DNA of 64,000 nt from assembly GCF_026341515.1 (NCBI RefSeq), contig NZ_JAPEOK010000001.1, forward strand, positions 4,774,001 through 4,838,000. The letters are read 5' to 3'. The notes under the pieces are model-generated. The model made no database searches. It saw nothing but the letters and a program-made list of their open reading frames with translations, and was not told where the DNA came from. Positions 14,488 through 21,765 of the stretch are shown here, one piece after another (position 1 is the stretch's first letter; the number at the start of each line of letters is the position of its first letter). The DNA is from Streptomyces sp. NBC_00878. Lineage in GTDB: Bacteria > Actinomycetota > Actinomycetes > Streptomycetales > Streptomycetaceae. The position numbers and the translations under genes are program-made.

Positions 14488-14727
14488 TCACCCCTCCCTC
14501 TCAGCCCGCCGTACATCCCTCACCCGCCGCAACCGGTTGACCGTGACGGGATCGTGGGCAAGGGCCCGCGGCGCGTCCAGGAGGGCGTTGAGCAGCTGGT
14601 AGTAGCGAACCGGGGCCAGCCCCAGTTCCTCCCGTATCGCCCGCTCCTTGGCCCCCGGCGTGGACCACCCCCGCCGCTCCAGCGCAAGCACCGCATGCTC
14701 CTGCGCGGTCAGCTCCTCGTCGTCCAT
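14488..14727 (-). CDS. DUF3263 family protein
   Basis: A 79-residue basic protein: ELTAQEHAVLALERRGWSTPGAKERAIREELGL followed by YYQLLNALLD and a C-terminal NRLRRVRDVRRAERE. This is the actinobacterial DUF3263 pattern, which looks like a small helix-turn-helix. Start chosen as MDDEE at 14727; an in-frame ATG 14 codons upstream is possible. Function unknown. It lies next to otsB in the same orientation, 52 bp upstream. Confidence 0.85.
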   Translation of the reverse strand: MDDEELTAQEHAVLALERRGWSTPGAKERAIREELGLAPVRYYQLLNALLDAPRALAHDPVTVNRLRRVRDVRRAEREG

Positions 14728-14844
14728 GCCCGGCACGGTAGCGGAGTCCGGCCGGGGCACCCCCTGCACGCCGAGCGTGGGTGCACGAGCTTGCCAGGAA
14801 GGCCGTCGTCACTTTCCGAGCAAACGGGAACCTGATCAGTCCTG

Positions 14845-14874
14845 TTTCGCTCATTTTTCGCTCGCTTTTCGCTC
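14845..14874 (+). promoter_or_regulatory. three 11-bp-phased direct repeats upstream of the TIR gene
   Basis: TTTCGCTC occurs at 14845, 14856 and 14867, exactly 11 bp apart, in an AT-rich stretch 141-170 bp before the TIR-NB-ARC start. Repeats on one face of the helix with 11-bp spacing are typical of SARP/AfsR- and PhoP-type binding sites. The regulator is unknown. Confidence 0.55.
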
Positions 14875-15014
14875 GTTTCAGTGATCAACGCTCTCGCGGT
14901 CTTGTGACGGCGCCCGGATTCCGATGGGATGCGTCCAGCCCGCTGGGGGTGGGTGTCCGGGGACGCGGCGTGATGGTGCCCCGGCAGCCGTCGCGATGAG
15001 CCCGAGGACCCCAA

Positions 15015-17504
15015 GTGACCGAGCACCGAGGTGGCGCTGTTCCAGGCCCGGATTCCCTGTACGACGTCTTCATCTGCTACACGTGGGCGGACGGCAAGGA
15101 ATGGGCCGACGCCATGTACGCGGCCCTGAGCGCCAGGGGACTGGTGGTCTTCCAGGACGACCTGTCGGTGCCCGAGTGGGACGACGACGAAATGCTGCCG
15201 TCGGTGAAGGCGGCCCTCCTCGGCTCACGGGTTCTCCTTCCCCTGCTCACCCCGTGCTTCGACGAAAGCGACCACTGCTGGTCCGAATTGCACCTCGCCC
15301 TGTCCTGCGCGAAGGCTCTGGGCGGGACCGCGATGCGCCGGATCATGCCGCTGACCTGGAAGGTGCCGCCCGCGAAGGTCAGGCCCAAGGCGGTCAAGCG
15401 GCGCAAGCTCACCCGGGAGGGCCGCTCGGTCGAGGAACTGGCGGACCATGTCGCAGGTGTGGTCCGCGAGGTGGCGGAAGCCGACGGCCGGCGCTTCGGC
15501 GACGCGATGACCGACAGGCCGAGCTGGATCGTCGATGAACTGATCGGCGAGTCCGGATTCGTCGGACGGCGCAAGGAACTCTGGGCCCTGCACGACGCAC
15601 TGCAGGAGCGCGGCGGAACACTCGACAGCGGTGCACCCATCGTTTCCGTACGAGGACTGGGAGGCTCGGGCAAGACCACCCTGGCCAGGCAGTACGGCCG
15701 TTGGGCGGCCCAGGACCATCCCGGCGGCGTCTTCGTCGTCGAGCTGTCCGGCAGTGACCCCCTGGGCCGGGACGACTCCGGCGCCGTCCAGGCCGGCTTC
15801 GACACGGCGATGCGGCGTATCGCGACAGGTCTCTCCATCCCCGATCTCTCGCTGCCCGATCTCTCCCTGCCCGAACGCGCGGGCACCAGCGAAGAGTTAC
15901 GGCATGCAGTCGGCCGCCATCTGAGAGATCTGCCGTCCTATCTCTGGATCGTCGACGACCTCCCCGCCTCCGTGAGCCTGCGCGAGCACCCGTACCTGCT
16001 CGCCCCCAGCCCCAACGGCAGGACACTCGTCACCACCCGCGGCACTGTCCGCGGCACGAGCCGCACCGACATCGTTCTGTCCCGCCTGGGCCCGAGACCA
16101 GGACTGAGTCTGCTGACCGCACACCGCAGGCCGGTCCGGGAGGACATCGACGAACGCAACGCCGCTCGCGGCATCGTGGCGGACCTGCGGGAGCACCCCC
16201 TCGCTCTGCGGATCACCGCCGGGCTGACGACTACAGAGGGATTCACCGGCTACCGCTCCCTCCTCGCGGACCTGCGCGAGGATCCCAAGCCCGTGCTCGA
16301 ACTCGCGGAACACCTGGGCCACGACCTGCCCGCGGAGACCGCCCGCCCGCTCAGCGGAGTCCTGCTGCGCGCGTTCGACGCCCTGCCCGCCCCTGCTTCC
16401 CGCCTGCTCGCCGGCGCGAGCGTACTCGCCGCAGCGCCCATCCCTCACGACCTCCTGGCGGGCGCACTCCGCGGTACGGACGAGGACCCGGACGCCGCCG
16501 AGACAGCGGTGACGGACGGCATCCGCGCTCTTGAGGGCCGAGGACTCGTCGAGGCGGCCCAGGATGTCTCCGGCGCCACCTACTTCGTCCACGCGCTGGT
16601 CGGTCGCGCGGCACGCGTCCTGCTGCGCGACGCGACGCGGCGGCAGGTCTCCCACCGGGCGGTGCGCACGCTGGCCGACCTCCTCGACCGGACGGAAGTC
16701 GACGCCGCGTCGAGGCTCCGTACGCTCGGCCTGCTGGCACACGTCCAGGCCGCGGCGAATCTGGCGGCCCCGGAAGGCTGGGGCGTCGACAACGGCCAGT
16801 GGTCCCTCGTCGCGCAGTCCGGGCGTCTTCGCTCGCAGCTGGGCGACAGCGCGGGCGCCGTCGACGACTTCCAGGCCCTGTACGCCTCGTGCCGTGCTTC
16901 GCCGCTCTGCGACCCGTACACCACGCTGTGCGCGCTGGTCGGACTCGGAGCCGTGCTCCAGGAGAACGGAGCACTCACACAAGCGCGCGAACTCCAGGAG
17001 CGGGCCGTCGAGGAACTCGACGCACTGCACGGCCGCGACGGGTTCGGCCGCCCCCATCCCGACACCCTGTGGGCGATGAACAATCTCGCCAACACCCACC
17101 AGGCGCTCGGCGACCACCGGACGGCCCGCACGCTGCTGCGGGAGACCTACCGTGGCTGGCACGGACGCCTCGGCCCGTCCGCTCCGCAAACCCTGACGGC
17201 CCTCAACAACCTGGCGATAGCGATCGGCCGAGGACCCGGCCGTTACGCGGCGCCCACCGCGCTGCGCATCGCCGCCTTCGCCCACGAACGATGGGCCAAC
17301 ACGGCCGGACGCGACGCCCGGGGCACGGTGGACAGCCTGTTCAGCATCGGCGCCAACCACCTCCGCCTCGGTGACGCCGCGACGGCGCTCACCGCGTTCG
17401 AGGAGGTCTGGCGGCGACGCCGGGCCCACCTGGGCGACGACCACCCCGACACCCTCGACGCTCGCGAGAACATCATCACCGCACGCAGGAGGACCGCCTC
17501 GTGA
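15015..17504 (+). CDS. TIR-NB-ARC-TPR protein (NLR-like STAND ATPase)
   Basis: An 829-residue three-part signalling protein. Residues 14-110 are a TIR domain: YDVFICYTWADGKEWADAMY, FQDDLSV, LLPLLTPCF and CWSELHLAL, where Glu91 is in the place of the NADase glutamate. Residues 180-470 are a STAND/NB-ARC ATPase with Walker A GLGGSGKTT (214-222), Walker B YLWIVDD (309-315), a TTRGTVRG sensor and EHPLALRI. The remainder is TPR-like (HPDTLWAMNNLANTHQALGDH repeated as HPDTLDAREN). In known TIR-NLR immune proteins the sensor triggers NAD+ cleavage. Codon 295 is TTA (15897-15899). The last four bases overlap the next gene (GTGA). Confidence 0.9.
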   Translation: MTEHRGGAVPGPDSLYDVFICYTWADGKEWADAMYAALSARGLVVFQDDLSVPEWDDDEMLPSVKAALLGSRVLLPLLTPCFDESDHCWSELHLALSCAKALGGTAMRRIMPLTWKVPPAKVRPKAVKRRKLTREGRSVEELADHVAGVVREVAEADGRRFGDAMTDRPSWIVDELIGESGFVGRRKELWALHDALQERGGTLDSGAPIVSVRGLGGSGKTTLARQYGRWAAQDHPGGVFVVELSGSDPLGRDDSGAVQAGFDTAMRRIATGLSIPDLSLPDLSLPERAGTSEELRHAVGRHLRDLPSYLWIVDDLPASVSLREHPYLLAPSPNGRTLVTTRGTVRGTSRTDIVLSRLGPRPGLSLLTAHRRPVREDIDERNAARGIVADLREHPLALRITAGLTTTEGFTGYRSLLADLREDPKPVLELAEHLGHDLPAETARPLSGVLLRAFDALPAPASRLLAGASVLAAAPIPHDLLAGALRGTDEDPDAAETAVTDGIRALEGRGLVEAAQDVSGATYFVHALVGRAARVLLRDATRRQVSHRAVRTLADLLDRTEVDAASRLRTLGLLAHVQAAANLAAPEGWGVDNGQWSLVAQSGRLRSQLGDSAGAVDDFQALYASCRASPLCDPYTTLCALVGLGAVLQENGALTQARELQERAVEELDALHGRDGFGRPHPDTLWAMNNLANTHQALGDHRTARTLLRETYRGWHGRLGPSAPQTLTALNNLAIAIGRGPGRYAAPTALRIAAFAHERWANTAGRDARGTVDSLFSIGANHLRLGDAATALTAFEEVWRRRRAHLGDDHPDTLDARENIITARRRTAS

Positions 17505-18025
17505 CCACTGCTCCCGACGACTGGAGCCACTACGCCCTCTACGCGGACCGGCTGCGGGTGCAGGGGCCCGAGCATCTCGCCACCGTGACGACCCTCTGGG
17601 CCCTGCTGCACGGAGGTCTCACGGACTTTCCGCTGCCGGAGGGCGCCGGCATTACCGTCGGCGAGCCGAGCGATCTGCCCGACGGCGTCGGCCCCGAAGA
17701 CGTCCATCTGGAAGGCGACCACGACGAACTGCTCTCCGAACTCCTGGTCGCCGCGGTCGATTTCCAGGAACGGCAGGTCGCACGGCACGGCCCGGACGCC
17801 CCCGAGACACTGCGCGCGACCCTGGGCCTCGCCCACGCGATGGCCGCGGCCAATCAGTACGAAGGGCAGCGCGACCACGCCCTGATCCTGGCGCAGGACG
17901 CCCGGGAGGGCATCGACGACTGGGCGGCACGGTCACCCGAGGCCGTCGGTGCCAGGGACCAGGAGGTTGCCCGGACCCTGCACCACTGGGTCCTCGACCG
18001 GCTGGGCGAGGACCCCACCTACTGA
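17501..18025 (+). CDS. small TPR-like partner of the TIR-NB-ARC protein
   Basis: A 174-residue protein whose GTG overlaps the stop of the TIR gene, so the two are made together. Its C-terminal half (APETLRATLGLAHAMAAANQYEGQ then DHALILAQDAREG) resembles the TPR units of that gene; the N-terminal half is acidic with no recognised domain. I find no catalytic motif, signal peptide or membrane segment. It ends inside a 36-bp tandem repeat and overlaps the 3' end of the convergent NB-ARC gene by 93 bp. An adaptor or regulator role is inferred from position only. Confidence 0.8.
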   Translation: MTTAPDDWSHYALYADRLRVQGPEHLATVTTLWALLHGGLTDFPLPEGAGITVGEPSDLPDGVGPEDVHLEGDHDELLSELLVAAVDFQERQVARHGPDAPETLRATLGLAHAMAAANQYEGQRDHALILAQDAREGIDDWAARSPEAVGARDQEVARTLHHWVLDRLGEDPTY

Positions 18026-20269
18026 GCCGGGCCGCCCGTCACCGAGGTCCCCGCCTACTGAGCCGGGCCGCCCGTCACCGAGGTCCCCGCCTACTGAGCC
18101 GGGCCGCCCGTCACCGAGGTCCGCCAACCGCGCGGCCACCGCATCGGCATCCGACGCGCCCAGCGACGTGAACAGCTCCAGCGCCGCCTGCCACCGGTCA
18201 CGGGCCGCGTCGACATGCCCCGCGGTGGCGTACACGGAGCCGAGCTGCCGCAGGGCCCGTGCCTCCTCGTATCGGCTTCCGGCTCCGCGGGCGAACTCGA
18301 TGGCCTGTTCATAGGCCCGGGCGGCGGACACACCGTCGCCGTCCCGCTCCAGGGCCATACCGAGCGTGTACGCGGACTGGGCGACGTCGAGGCCGAGGCC
18401 CAGCGCGGAGAACAGGGTCATCGCCTCGGTGGCGTGGCCCGTCGCGTCGGCGGTGCGGCCCAGCGCGGTCTCGGCCTTGGCCATGCTGCGCAGAGTGATG
18501 CCGACCTTCCGCATCGCCCCGGTCCTGCGATAGACGTCCAGGGCACGCTGCTGAAGGTCCAGCGCCTCGGCGTACGCGCCCTGCCGCCGACGGACGGAGG
18601 CGAGGTTGGCCAGGGCGTCACTGAGGCCGTGCCCGTCGTCGAGTTCCGCGAACCGGTCGTGCGCCAGCCGGTACTGGCGGGCCGCCTCCTCCACGCTGCC
18701 CGCTTCCAGCAGAGCGCGCCCGAGGTTGTTGCGCGTCATGGCCTCGGCACGGCGGTCGCCCAGGCGTTCACATCCGGCCAATGCCAGGTAGTGGCTCTCC
18801 GACCAGCCGTCCAGGTGCTTGGCCAGGTAGAAGTAGTCGCGCAGGGTGTAGGCCAGTTGCCAACGGCGCACGTCGAAGACGGGGTCGTCCAGTCGGCAGA
18901 GCGCCACCAGGGTGCGCCACTCGGCGTCCATCCAGCACAGTGCGTCGGCCCTGCTCGCCATCGGCGGCTCGACCGCGATCGGACGCCCTCCGGTCGCCAG
19001 GGCGAAGCGGTAGCGGTACGGCATGATGACGCGTCCGGCCCGGTCCGCCATGGACAGGTAGTAGTCGTACAGGCCGTCGAGCGGGTGCGGGTCGTGCGGG
19101 TGCGGGTCGTGCGCCGACGTGCCGACGGCCGTGTGCAGTTCGCGCCCGTAGGCGCGCATCAGATCGTGCATCGCGAACCGGTCGCCCCTGTCGTCCACGA
19201 GGTGCGAGTCGGACAGCCGGCGCAGCAGACGGACCGCCTCGTCGCCCGGCGTTCCGAGCAGCGCCGCGGCCGAGGGGAGGTCGAACGTGTCGCCGGGGTG
19301 CAGCGCGAGGAGTACGAAGGCTTCGCGTACGGCCGTCGGCAGGCTTCGGTAGGACCAGGAGAACACACTGCGCAGGGTGGAACGGGTGTCGTCGTCCGCG
19401 TCGAAGTCGAAGAGGTCGAGCCCGGTGCCGATGCCGTTCAGCTCGCTGACGAGCGAGGCGATGCTGCGTGTGGGACGTACGGCGACTTTCTGCGCCGCGA
19501 TGCGCAGGGCCAGCGGAAGGCCGGCGCAGTGGGCGGCGAGTCGGCCGACGCTCTTCTTCTCGGCGGCCGCCCGCTCCCCGATCGCGGCATTGAGCAGCGT
19601 GATGCTCTCGGCACCGCCGAGGACGCCGAGCGCCACGGTCCGTACCGCGTGGTGCACACTCAGTCCGCTCAGCTTCCGTCGACTGGTGACCACCACGGCG
19701 CAGGTGTCCGAGCCCGGCAGGAGGGGGCGGATCTGGTCGGTGGAGGAGGCGTTGTCGAGGAGGACGAGCACCCGGCGACCGCTCAGCGCCGTACGGAAGG
19801 TGGCCGCCCGTTCCTCCAGTGGCCCGCTCTCGGCGGCGAGCGACCGCCCCAGGGCGCGCAGAAAGCCGCTGAGAACGGTGAGCGGCGACAGCGGTTCCTC
19901 CGGACCGAAACCCCTCAGGTCCACGTAGAGCTGGCCGTCCGGGAAGTGGGGGGCGGCCCGGTGTCCCCAGAATGCGGCCAGTGCCGTCTTACCCGTGGCG
20001 GCGGCGCCGGAGAGCAGCACGATTCTCGGTTGCCCGGCCGTGGGCGGCTGGAGCAGACTTCCCAGTTCCTCCAGTTCCGCGGCGCGCCCCACGAACAGGC
20101 CCCCGCTCACCGGAAGCTGACGCGGTATCTCGGTTCCCGGCGCGCCGCCGGTCACCTGGATCCCACCGTCGATCCGGCCCGCCTGAACCACCACACCGGC
20201 CGAGGCGTTGACCGCGTTGGTGATCTCGTGATCTCGGAGGCGGACGGGACGGTGCAGGTGATCGGCCAT
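17933..20269 (-). CDS. AfsR-like NB-ARC/TPR protein without a DNA-binding domain
   Basis: A 778-residue STAND ATPase. The N-terminus holds the peptide VVVQAGRIDGGIQVTGG, a short conserved lead found in many Streptomyces NTPases. The NB-ARC part has FVGRAAELEEL, Walker A SGAAATGKTAL (about 87-97), LYVDLRGF, Walker B RRVLVLLDNA, VTSRRKL and AGLPLALRIAA. A winged helix follows (DLMRAYGREL), then about eight TPR-like helices (MTRNNLGRALLEAGSVEEAARQ style). The SARP domain of AfsR is absent. The last 60 residues are read antisense to the partner gene and include three DLGDGRPGSVGG units. ATG at 20267-20269 follows GGGGG. Confidence 0.88.
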   Translation of the reverse strand: MADHLHRPVRLRDHEITNAVNASAGVVVQAGRIDGGIQVTGGAPGTEIPRQLPVSGGLFVGRAAELEELGSLLQPPTAGQPRIVLLSGAAATGKTALAAFWGHRAAPHFPDGQLYVDLRGFGPEEPLSPLTVLSGFLRALGRSLAAESGPLEERAATFRTALSGRRVLVLLDNASSTDQIRPLLPGSDTCAVVVTSRRKLSGLSVHHAVRTVALGVLGGAESITLLNAAIGERAAAEKKSVGRLAAHCAGLPLALRIAAQKVAVRPTRSIASLVSELNGIGTGLDLFDFDADDDTRSTLRSVFSWSYRSLPTAVREAFVLLALHPGDTFDLPSAAALLGTPGDEAVRLLRRLSDSHLVDDRGDRFAMHDLMRAYGRELHTAVGTSAHDPHPHDPHPLDGLYDYYLSMADRAGRVIMPYRYRFALATGGRPIAVEPPMASRADALCWMDAEWRTLVALCRLDDPVFDVRRWQLAYTLRDYFYLAKHLDGWSESHYLALAGCERLGDRRAEAMTRNNLGRALLEAGSVEEAARQYRLAHDRFAELDDGHGLSDALANLASVRRRQGAYAEALDLQQRALDVYRRTGAMRKVGITLRSMAKAETALGRTADATGHATEAMTLFSALGLGLDVAQSAYTLGMALERDGDGVSAARAYEQAIEFARGAGSRYEEARALRQLGSVYATAGHVDAARDRWQAALELFTSLGASDADAVAARLADLGDGRPGSVGGDLGDGRPGSVGGDLGDGRPGSVGGVLAQPVEDPVVQGPGNLLVPGTDGLG
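18018..18122. repeat. 36-bp tandem repeat, 2.9 copies, at convergent gene ends
   Basis: Units begin at 18018, 18054 and 18090 with CCTACTGAGC. Each carries the TAC-TGA that ends the + strand gene, and on the - strand each encodes DLGDGRPGSVGG. The array lies inside both overlapping genes' 3' ends. Confidence 0.95.
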
Positions 20270-20469
20270 GCGGTTCCCCCTCGGCACACACACGCGCGCG
20301 TATCGCCTCTTTCCCGAGAGTAGCCACCACCGGCCGCCACGGACACCGTGCCTCGACCGCGACGAGCCGGTGGAACGGCCTTGAGAGCGCGGGACCGTGT
20401 CGACGCACGGCTCCGCCACGTGGGGGCGACAAGCCCCCGCGACCGGCACCCGACACACCACCGACAGCG

Positions 20470-21765
20470 CTACGACGCGCTCTCCTCCGCGACAGCGGTC
20501 CGCTGGAGCCGGCCCAGGATTGCCGACGGGTTGCCCTTCGGGCTCACGGCCTTGCCTATGCGCTGCTTGATGGCCGCGCTCACCGACGCCCAGGACGTCT
20601 TCGCCGCGGGGTACAGCTCGGCATTGGGCAACTCGCCGAGGAAGTCGACGAGATCCGCGTCGGACCTGTCCGCCGCCATCGTCTCGGACGCCGACGTGGT
20701 CACCGGCAGCAGGTCGTACTCGCGCGAGAACGCGAGCACGTTCTTGTCGCTGTACACGTAGTCGAGGAAGTCCCCGACCTGCTCGGCGTGCCCGGGCTTC
20801 CTGAACGCCGTCATCCAGTCGGCGACGCCCATCGTGGCCTTGGACCGCCCGTTGATGCCGGGCACCGGCACCATGCCGAACTCCACGCCCTTCGCCGCGG
20901 CGGCCTTCATCAGCGTGGGGTGGCCGTTCAGCATGCCGACCTCGCCGCGTGTGAACGCCTCGAAGGCCTGTGCGCGGTTGAGATTCGCGGGCGCGACGGG
21001 TCCGGTGAGTCCCTTCTCGACCAGTTCCTCCTTCAGCCAGGTGAAGGTCTCGACGTTCTGGTCGGAGTCGATGCCGTACGACCCGACCGTGTCGGTGTAG
21101 CCGTCACCGCCGCTCAGCAGCCACATCATCGTCTCGGCCTGCGCCTCCTCGGGCCCCAGCGGCAGCGCGTACGGGTACGTGACGCCACGCGACTTGAGGA
21201 CCTGGGCGTCGGCGGCGAGCCGGCTCCAGCTCCGCGGCGGGGTGAGGCCCGCGTCGGCGAAGAGCTTCTTGTTGTAGAAGAGCAGCCGCGTCGAGGAGGC
21301 GAACGGCATGCCGTACTGGGTCCGGTCCAGCTCCCCCGCCTCGGTGAGCCGGCCCACGAAGTCGGCCTGGGTGTCGATGGAGAGCAGGTCGTCGGCCTCG
21401 TAGAGCTGCCCCTTCGCGGCGTAGTCGGCGTACGCGCCGATCTGTGCCATGTCGGGCGCGTGACCGTCGGCGACCATTTTCTTGACCTTGGCGTCGACGT
21501 CGTTCCAGGAGTAGACGCTCACCTCGACCTTGACCCCGGGGTTCTTCGCCTCGTACGCCTTGGTCAGTCGGTCCCAGTACTTCTGGGAGCTGTTCGCCTC
21601 GGAGTCGCCGTAGTCGGCCGCGACCAGCCTCAGCGTGACGCCCCCGGACCCGGACGCGCCCCCTTCTCCATCCCCGTCCCCGGACAAACTGGCGCAGCCT
21701 CCGATGACCGCCGTCATGCCCAGCGCGGACACCATCGCGATCAGACCTGTCACTCGCCGCTGCAC
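20470..21765 (-). CDS. extracellular sugar-binding lipoprotein of an ABC importer
   Basis: A 431-residue solute-binding protein anchored by a lipid: signal MQRRVTGLIAMVSALGMTAV with lipobox IGGC (Cys24). The mature protein is the bacterial extracellular family 1 type, with YGDSEANSSQKYWDRLTKAYE, VEVSVYSW, APDMAQIGAYA, FNKKLF-like FYNKKLFADAGL and GVADWMTAF. No permease genes adjoin it. It diverges from nagK across dre-like sites, so an amino-sugar ligand is inferred. Energy may come from MsiK, encoded at 46.4 kb. The start is GTG with a weak GGGG. Confidence 0.92.
   Translation of the reverse strand: MQRRVTGLIAMVSALGMTAVIGGCASLSGDGDGEGGASGSGGVTLRLVAADYGDSEANSSQKYWDRLTKAYEAKNPGVKVEVSVYSWNDVDAKVKKMVADGHAPDMAQIGAYADYAAKGQLYEADDLLSIDTQADFVGRLTEAGELDRTQYGMPFASSTRLLFYNKKLFADAGLTPPRSWSRLAADAQVLKSRGVTYPYALPLGPEEAQAETMMWLLSGGDGYTDTVGSYGIDSDQNVETFTWLKEELVEKGLTGPVAPANLNRAQAFEAFTRGEVGMLNGHPTLMKAAAAKGVEFGMVPVPGINGRSKATMGVADWMTAFRKPGHAEQVGDFLDYVYSDKNVLAFSREYDLLPVTTSASETMAADRSDADLVDFLGELPNAELYPAAKTSWASVSAAIKQRIGKAVSPKGNPSAILGRLQRTAVAEESAS

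Follow-up and report, generated by a model that had tools for sequence, protein, structure and literature searches.

A TIR-NLR gene and an adjoining STAND gene as a probable paired-receptor immune module in Streptomyces sp. NBC_00878

The locus and its TIR-NLR

A 64,000-nucleotide stretch of the 11.1 Mb genome of Streptomyces sp. NBC_00878 (hereafter the window) was analysed for three open reading frames (ORFs): a gene for a TIR–NB-ARC–TPR protein of the STAND ATPases (signal transduction ATPases with numerous domains), here called the TIR-NLR after the nucleotide-binding leucine-rich-repeat receptors (NLRs), a small gene at its 3' end, and a second STAND gene, the partner. The first-pass annotation, made from the letters alone, had described a TIR–NB-ARC–TPR gene overlapping a 174-codon gene and facing an NB-ARC/TPR gene, and all three ORFs were found where it had placed them. 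Relatives were collected by a locus scan selected by TIR-NLR peptides, which gave 12 loci; with the window and locus L008 these make 14 distinct loci. The features of the window are as follows.

15015..17504, + strand: TIR–NB-ARC–TPR STAND gene, GTG at 15015 to TGA at 17504, 829 aa; proposed executor
15060..15464, + strand: TIR domain, residues about 16-150 (TIR_2, 2.1e-9); its profile matches the RPV1, RUN1 and AbTIR structures
15285..15287, + strand: codon of Glu91, the proposed NADase residue; invariant in 14/14 loci and on the conserved Glu of five TIR structures
15654..15677, + strand: Walker A GLGGSGKT of the TIR-NLR (sequence motif)
17487..17492, + strand: AGGAGG ribosome-binding site within the 3' end of the TIR gene, 8 nt upstream of the small gene's GTG
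17501..18025, + strand: small ORF, 174 aa, by sequence the separate C-terminal TPR segment of the TIR-NLR (fused-C-terminus profile 2.4e-34; AlphaFold2 model; kinesin-light-chain TPR match)
17933..20269, - strand: partner STAND gene, 778 aa, with RHIM-like N-terminal motif, NB-ARC and TPR; nearest named families AfsR and HaaT
20153..20218, - strand: RHIM/BASS3-like motif NAVNASAGVVVQAGRIDGGIQV, N-terminal in the partner; weak by profile (25/7,000 shuffles as high)
19475..20095, - strand: NB-ARC/AAA core of the partner (Pfam)
18125..18742, - strand: TPR region of the partner (Pfam)
18007..18122, no strand: tandem repeat with a 36-bp unit in 3.2 copies, running over the stop codon of the small gene and lying within the partner's 3' end; orthologues differ in copy number
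14770..20469, no strand: outer limits of the insertion, flanked by a DUF3263 gene (14488-14769) and a solute-binding gene (20470-21765)

The TIR gene matched the Pfam models TIR_2 (2.1e-9) and TPR_12 (1.1e-19) above their cut-offs, and its NB-ARC and AAA_16 matches lay just below theirs (21.1 against 23.5 bits and 25.8 against 32.6 bits). The small gene overlaps it by 4 nt (GTGA). For the partner, which matched NB-ARC (1.3e-7) and TPR_12 (1.1e-20), the start was taken as ATG 20269 and the stop as 17933, the longest ORF beginning at 20461. A second STAND ATPase lying tail to tail with the small gene had been proposed, and the convergent NB-ARC/TPR gene at 17933-20269 bears this out; this gene and the small gene share 93 bp at their 3' ends, and the identical 93-bp overlap was present in 4/4 close orthologues.

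Glu91 sits in the motif CWSE91L and aligned with the conserved Glu in five printed TIR structure alignments, a residue that we take to be the catalytic one. The TIR profile matched the structures of RPV1 (3.2e-15), RUN1 (1.5e-13) and AbTIR (2.1e-8), and the profile of the full TIR-NLR aligned with Roq1 across TIR and NB-ARC, its best match in the PDB being a kinesin-light-chain TPR (1.2e-28) over the TPR part. The STAND ATPase motifs are the P-loop GLGGSGKT and a Walker B LWIVDD, so that the conserved Glu, the P-loop and Walker B looked for in a TIR-NADase STAND are all present. The placing of Glu91 in the NADase position of a TIR-STAND protein thus held at the level of alignment, and the TIR-NLR is predicted to cleave NAD+. 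Comparison with Thoeris ThsB gave no full-length match, only matches to the TIR part (best 4.5e-5). The layout of the TIR protein is constant across loci. A search of the window's own genome yielded one TIR-NLR of this family, the other matches being TPR regions, and the TIR-NLR was likewise single in 11/11 other genomes, the two rows each for G681 and G682 being pieces of one gene.

A second STAND gene beside the TIR gene

A homologue of the partner lay beside the TIR gene in 12/12 scan loci and in 14/14 distinct loci overall. Among the listed matches (3 to 61 per genome), the adjoining partner was its genome's best match in 10/11 whole-searched genomes, the rank in four of the 11 being that among the best-scored candidates only; the partner of L018 was second best in its genome (327 against 344 bits). 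Under random placement, chance adjacency would be about 0.3-3% per genome. Because it adjoins the TIR gene in 14/14 loci and is the genome's best match in 10/11, the facing STAND gene is, as judged from these comparisons, a real and conserved second component.

Two further samples extended the comparison. Among 297 genomes of another family there were at least eight matches, one of them the genome of L017, giving seven new loci: five intact pairs (L102, L104-L107), one with a truncated partner (L101) and one with none (L103). A class-wide sample of 394 genomes gave at least six further TIR-NLR matches (L047-L052), beside which no partner was found at 1e-4; L047, L048 and L051 match from the TIR end, and L049, L050 and L052 in the NB-ARC/TPR parts only. 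Pfam found TPRs in L101, L102 and L104-L107 (6/6), all with an intact or truncated partner, and found none in L047, L048, L051 and L103, with a partner in 0/4. Since the partner tracks the presence of TPRs in these loci, it appears to accompany the complete TIR–NB-ARC–TPR type. At L101 (6772-7578) the partner is cut to an HTH (24.4 bits, under the cut-off) and part of NB-ARC, directly before an open TIR-NLR, which makes this locus a naturally occurring module without a partner.

The 19 intact pairs comprise eight convergent, eight tandem (partner upstream) and three divergent arrangements; pair orientation thus varies, which argues that the adjacency outlasts rearrangement. The two genes overlap or stand no more than 22 nt apart except in five pairs (53, 59, 400, 1005 and 1005 nt); among the 12 scan loci the gap is at most 400 nt. 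In the tandem pairs the gap is 6-22 nt in 5/8, the other three being -131, 1005 and 1005 nt. AfsR-like STAND matches at 1e-30 numbered at least 61 in G673 (the Kibdelosporangium genome of L013) and at least 45 in G675 (the Amycolatopsis genome of L015); these are large receptor repertoires.

In trees of 14 rows, the TIR and partner genes agreed on an eight-locus convergent clade, in which the window, L008, L009 and L012 join L013, and L014 joins L015 and L016. This clade spans Streptomyces, Pseudonocardiaceae, Kribbella and Nocardia and cuts across taxonomy in both trees. The TIR and partner distances correlated with r=0.954 (0/20,000 permutations as high; 14 rows, of which five are near-duplicates).

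While the core of the partner is constant, its N-terminal module is exchanged between loci. Among the 19 intact pairs the N-terminus is RHIM-like in eight (window, L008, L009, L012, L013, L014, L018, L010), HTH_31 in eight (L017, L020, L021, L102, L104-L107) and SARP/BTAD in L022 only; the partners of L015 and L016 begin with sequence outside these three classes. In the window's partner no SARP/BTAD was found, nor any Pfam match before residue 59 at E 1. A profile of the effector C-termini, taken from small motif-bearing proteins, scored the partner motifs of L018, L010, L014 and L013 at 34.5, 26.0, 7.4 and 4.9 bits, and those of the window, L008, L012 and L009 at only 1.1, 1.2, 1.1 and 0.0 bits; the RHIM-like call in these last four is based on position and a common VVQAG core.

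A small protein with a C-terminal RHIM-like motif adjoins the module in 3/8 motif-bearing loci (L012, L014, L018). Those of L012 and L018 are related, the L012 query finding that of L018 at 2.4e-6, and that of L014 is linked to them by motif and position alone. We call such proteins Bell-like because they resemble those described in the literature; they fall under no Pfam model. The window's own genome holds two unlinked Bell-like proteins with RHIM-like stretches NTISGGVQHGTVIQAHTVG and NLVSGGVTETLVQAGSIG, at G000:C1:8228043-8228474 (L075 1501-1932) and around G000:C1:4247645-4247872 (L083 1342-1881). One is 62% identical to the small protein of L012 and the other is more weakly alike (1.1e-4); no partner or TIR-NLR matches were found within the surrounding 17-19 kb. 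The window's partner receptor may have these orphan proteins as unlinked targets.

The split TPR segment and the genomic site

The first-pass annotation had taken the small ORF for a dedicated partner of no recognised family in a three-part arrangement. A profile built from eight fused C-terminal segments alone found it at 115.7 bits (E 2.4e-34), against 11.1 bits for the best of 2,000 shuffles; with L013 left out of the profile it still scored 88.3 bits. The only other ORF of the window above the shuffles was the TIR gene (15.3 bits). Because the profile of fused C-termini recovers it so far above the shuffles, the small ORF is, by sequence, the last TPR segment of the TIR protein made as a separate gene. 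The segment is recognisable as a domain in 14/14 loci, in L014 and L017 by alignment only and not by tblastn at 0.01. It is fused in eight (L013, L014, L017, L018, L010 (=L019), L020, L021, L022) and a separate ORF in six (window, L008, L009 (=L011), L012, L015, L016), all six of which the fused-segment profile recovered at 115.7-141.6 bits. The C-terminus of a distant TIR-NLR of 983 aa in G227 also matched the small protein (blastp 2e-05). The idea of a three-part system with a dedicated small partner was accordingly given up, the separate gene being absent beside 8/14 homologues and fused there instead, an outcome that the first-pass annotation had itself named as refuting.

In the four Streptomyces loci the split falls at an RTGA overlap with a Shine-Dalgarno (SD)-like sequence; L015 and L016 have a 17-nt overlap that uses a different frame and likewise carries an SD. 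Read by eye, an SD-like sequence is present at 6/6 split junctions. Both split groups have a fused sister in the TIR tree (L013 at 94/89, L014 within a 100/99 clade), which is explained most simply by two fissions; the segment was apparently split off twice. The ratio of nonsynonymous to synonymous substitution rates (Ka/Ks) against L008, L009 and L012 was 0.27, 0.36 and 0.32 for the small gene, which on these values is under selection; the corresponding values were 0.47, 0.45 and 0.32 for the TIR gene and 0.29, 0.37 and 0.32 for the partner, its repeat tail excluded. AlphaFold2 modelled the small protein from 14 rows as six helices, with a mean predicted local distance difference test (pLDDT) score of 79.9 and a predicted template modelling (pTM) score of 0.75, the model being weak at residues 1-6, 45-56 and 66-71. 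At E 0.1 the profile of the small-protein family matched only kinesin-light-chain TPRs in the PDB (best 1.2e-4).

Two other readings of the small gene were rejected. As a new widespread family it found little company, its profile A4 retrieving from the 394 genomes of the class, among the matches listed, the window and three generic-looking TPR proteins. As the product of a programmed frameshift giving one long protein it lacked, on inspection by eye, an in-frame canonical slippery heptamer in the window overlap.

The three ORFs form an insertion between two genes that are otherwise neighbours. The flanking solute-binding (sugar-binding-protein) gene was matched in 16 other genomes, and in 14 of them DUF3263 lies close by, the two alignments ending 24-187 nt apart in 13 genomes and about 0.4 kb apart and inverted in one; the remaining two showed a contig end and a non-syntenic paralogue only. 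The proposal that the three genes interrupt a conserved core order is thereby upheld. The label of a defence island fared otherwise, as the genes checked on both sides (otsB, DUF3263, the solute-binding protein and a ROK kinase) are not defence genes.

A search for eight neighbours of the window around the modules of L008, L009 and L011-L016 found none of them. A conserved genomic site for the module was therefore rejected, and the absence of these neighbours around L008, L009 and L012 indicates that the module has occupied different places. Close copies of it were found in at least 3/295 genomes of the same genus, the window's own included, and TIR-NLR relatives at 1e-60 are rare (at least 4/295, own included). 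Plasmid collections yielded two weak matches on proteobacterial plasmids and no other kin. No gene family other than the pair recurs in three or more of the 14 modules.

Some single modules show features of their own. An IS4/5-type transposase (DUF4096, DDE_Tnp_1) lies at 14721-15338 of L012, in the AcH 505 module, less than 1 kb from the small motif-bearing gene, and is a possible means of movement. Beside the Kribbella module, at L014 2153-7532, lie a helicase (AAA_11/AAA_12 with a C-terminal MTES_1575 nuclease domain) and a DUF4145 gene, followed by the small motif-bearing gene; this is a defence-like neighbourhood. The 36-bp repeat of the window is in frame in the 3' end of the partner; L008 is without extra copies, and L009 has a shorter, different repeat unit at that position. 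Upstream of the TIR gene, at 14845-14878, the window has three 11-bp tandem copies of TTTCGCTCGTT, the extra copies being absent in L008, L009 and L012. A shared upstream operator was considered and rejected, the TIR upstream regions of four orthologues aligning poorly (58% mean column identity) and those of the partner better (73%).

A paired-receptor reading, its rivals and known systems

Taken together, we regard the locus as probably a mobile two-receptor (paired STAND/NLR) immune module, which would serve in defence against phages. The TIR–NB-ARC–TPR protein would be the executor: on activation by infection its NB-ARC would oligomerise and bring the TIR domains together, and the infected cell would be stopped through the action of Glu91, either cleavage of NAD+ or formation of a cyclic ADP-ribose product. 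In the lineage of the window the executor would consist of two coupled polypeptides, the ribosome ending the 829-aa chain and re-starting on GTGA. The re-started product, the last TPR-like hairpins, would dock back onto the TPR superhelix as its ligand-facing end, where contact with a ligand or with the partner might be expected. The facing NB-ARC/TPR protein would act as sensor or licensing receptor towards the executor, and in some loci it might also address an amyloid-type effector. In the window this second output might come from an effector whose gene lies at another place in the genome and which would be templated by the RHIM-like motif.

Several observations weigh against this reading. 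The partners of L106 and L107 lie 1 kb from the TIR gene, and L101 has lost most of its partner with the TIR gene still open. The correlation of distances falls to r=0.60 once five near-duplicate rows of the 14 are dropped (47/20,000 permutations as high). In trees of 19 rows the two genes disagree outside the convergent clade: the L106 and L107 partners stand beside that of L017 and their TIR proteins in a remote clade with L104 and L105, a mismatch which implies that partners were exchanged there. The RHIM-like motif of the window is weak when taken alone, 25/7,000 shuffles scoring as high, and no effector was found in the window by motif or by three types of query (the L012, L014 and L018 proteins, whose hits at those loci are self-matches, apart from the L012 query finding the L018 protein, and which gave no hit at the other loci). 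No kin of the module was found in the phage and viral collections searched, and PADLOC returned only weak partial TIR and TPR matches. Finally, the function assigned to the module is a prediction from sequence.

The view that the TIR-NLR works in defence by itself, with the second STAND gene a frequent neighbour only because STAND genes cluster in variable regions, seems to us unlikely. AfsR-like genes are numerous (19 matches in the window's own genome and up to at least 61 elsewhere), partners do not track TIR genes in the wider tree, and a TIR-NLR system does protect E. coli (PMC9122126). Such a neighbour would not, however, be expected to adjoin the TIR gene in 14/14 loci, to rank first among 3-61 listed matches in 10/11 genomes, to share its tree in the convergent clade, to lie 6-22 nt away in 5/8 tandem pairs and to be missing from all four TPR-less TIR relatives. 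A developmental or regulatory role, with the partner as an AfsR/SARP-like regulator and the TIR domain making a signalling nucleotide in hyphal differentiation, is rather improbable. It would agree with actinobacterial hosts, many of them filamentous, with AfsR and HaaT as the best-scoring named families of the partner, and with N-termini that are HTH in 8/19 and SARP in 1/19; patchy occurrence (at least 3/295 same-genus genomes) and differing insertion sites suit an accessory gene better.

Gene decay, by which the small ORF would be the remnant of a frameshifted TIR-NLR in a module being lost, could explain a split gene with a changed frame, and L101 shows that parts do decay. It is nevertheless highly improbable, given that the split is kept in four loci with the RTGA overlap and SD, that Ka/Ks of the small gene is 0.27-0.36, and that a second, differently framed split in L015 and L016 also carries an SD. 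Membership of the module in the FxSxx-COOH peptide systems, where a radical-SAM-modified peptide is accompanied by a TIR–AP-ATPase–TPR protein, is likewise very doubtful. TIR–AP-ATPases have been described downstream of such systems (PMC7159879), and among NCBIfam models the TIR gene scores best against the FxSxx TPR protein; at 153.8 bits, however, it reaches about half of the 300-bit cut-off, and no third family was found in three or more of the 14 modules, although no search was aimed at the peptide and radical-SAM genes themselves.

TIR-NLRs and amyloid-motif NLRs are already known, and we found no description of this pair in open PMC papers. The TIR-NLR system of P4-like satellites protects E. 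coli from phages and is treated, in the relevant passages of PMC9122126, as a single defence system. It resembles the paired-receptor module by name, as a TIR fused to an NLR, and here differs by the adjacent second STAND gene and the separate last TPR segment, a comparison made on the published description. The domain order of the window's TIR gene is that of the bacterial TIR-NB-TPR proteins and plant TNPs discussed in PMC9806590, passages of which report many actinobacterial NB-ARC matches together with bacterial TIR-NB-TPR sequences, and cell death by a maize TNP that requires its NADase site and P-loop; those passages mention neither a partner gene nor a split TPR segment. Passages of PMC7159879 describe TIR–AP-ATPase–TPR proteins near FxSxx peptide systems, and the TIR–AP-ATPase of VMAP systems. 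Of the named families, the FxSxx-COOH TPR protein (NF040586) comes closest to the TIR gene (153.8 bits, with 285-827 as the best stretch), but the score stays below that family's 300 bits, and no recurring peptide-processing genes were seen in the modules.

The partner has its own relatives. NLRs with BASS3/RHIM-like amyloid motifs and Bell effectors are described in parts of PMC8086366 and PMC7889193, the latter treating an amyloid NLR as one receptor with one small effector. Their layout of motif, NB-ARC and TPR is that of the partner, and a small protein with the C-terminal motif adjoins L012, L014 and L018; in the window, by contrast, the motif is weak, no effector is adjacent and the constant neighbour is a TIR-NLR. 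AfsR (NF053617) and HaaT (NF041717) match the partner core at 322.9 and 231.6 bits, short of their cut-offs of 1430 and 1125.

Plant paired NLRs such as RPS4/RRS1 consist of two adjacent NLR genes, a TIR executor and a second whose additional domain can be exchanged. Adjacency, TIR executor and exchangeable domain are alike in the module, a likeness that we offer only as an analogy. We would tentatively go further and see in the module a possible bacterial counterpart of plant sensor/executor NLR pairs, in which a constant TIR-NADase STAND would be checked and licensed by a second STAND with a swapped N-terminus (RHIM-like amyloid motif, HTH or SARP), driving NAD+ depletion plus a second output, either amyloid-triggered killing or transcription, with the executor's sensing end a separate, translationally coupled subunit in two lineages. 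If so, the plant-style question of mutual control in paired NLRs would become testable in a bacterium, NAD+ depletion and RHIM-like amyloid signalling would be united in one locus, and the repeated splitting of the last TPR segment would offer a natural handle on the sensing end.

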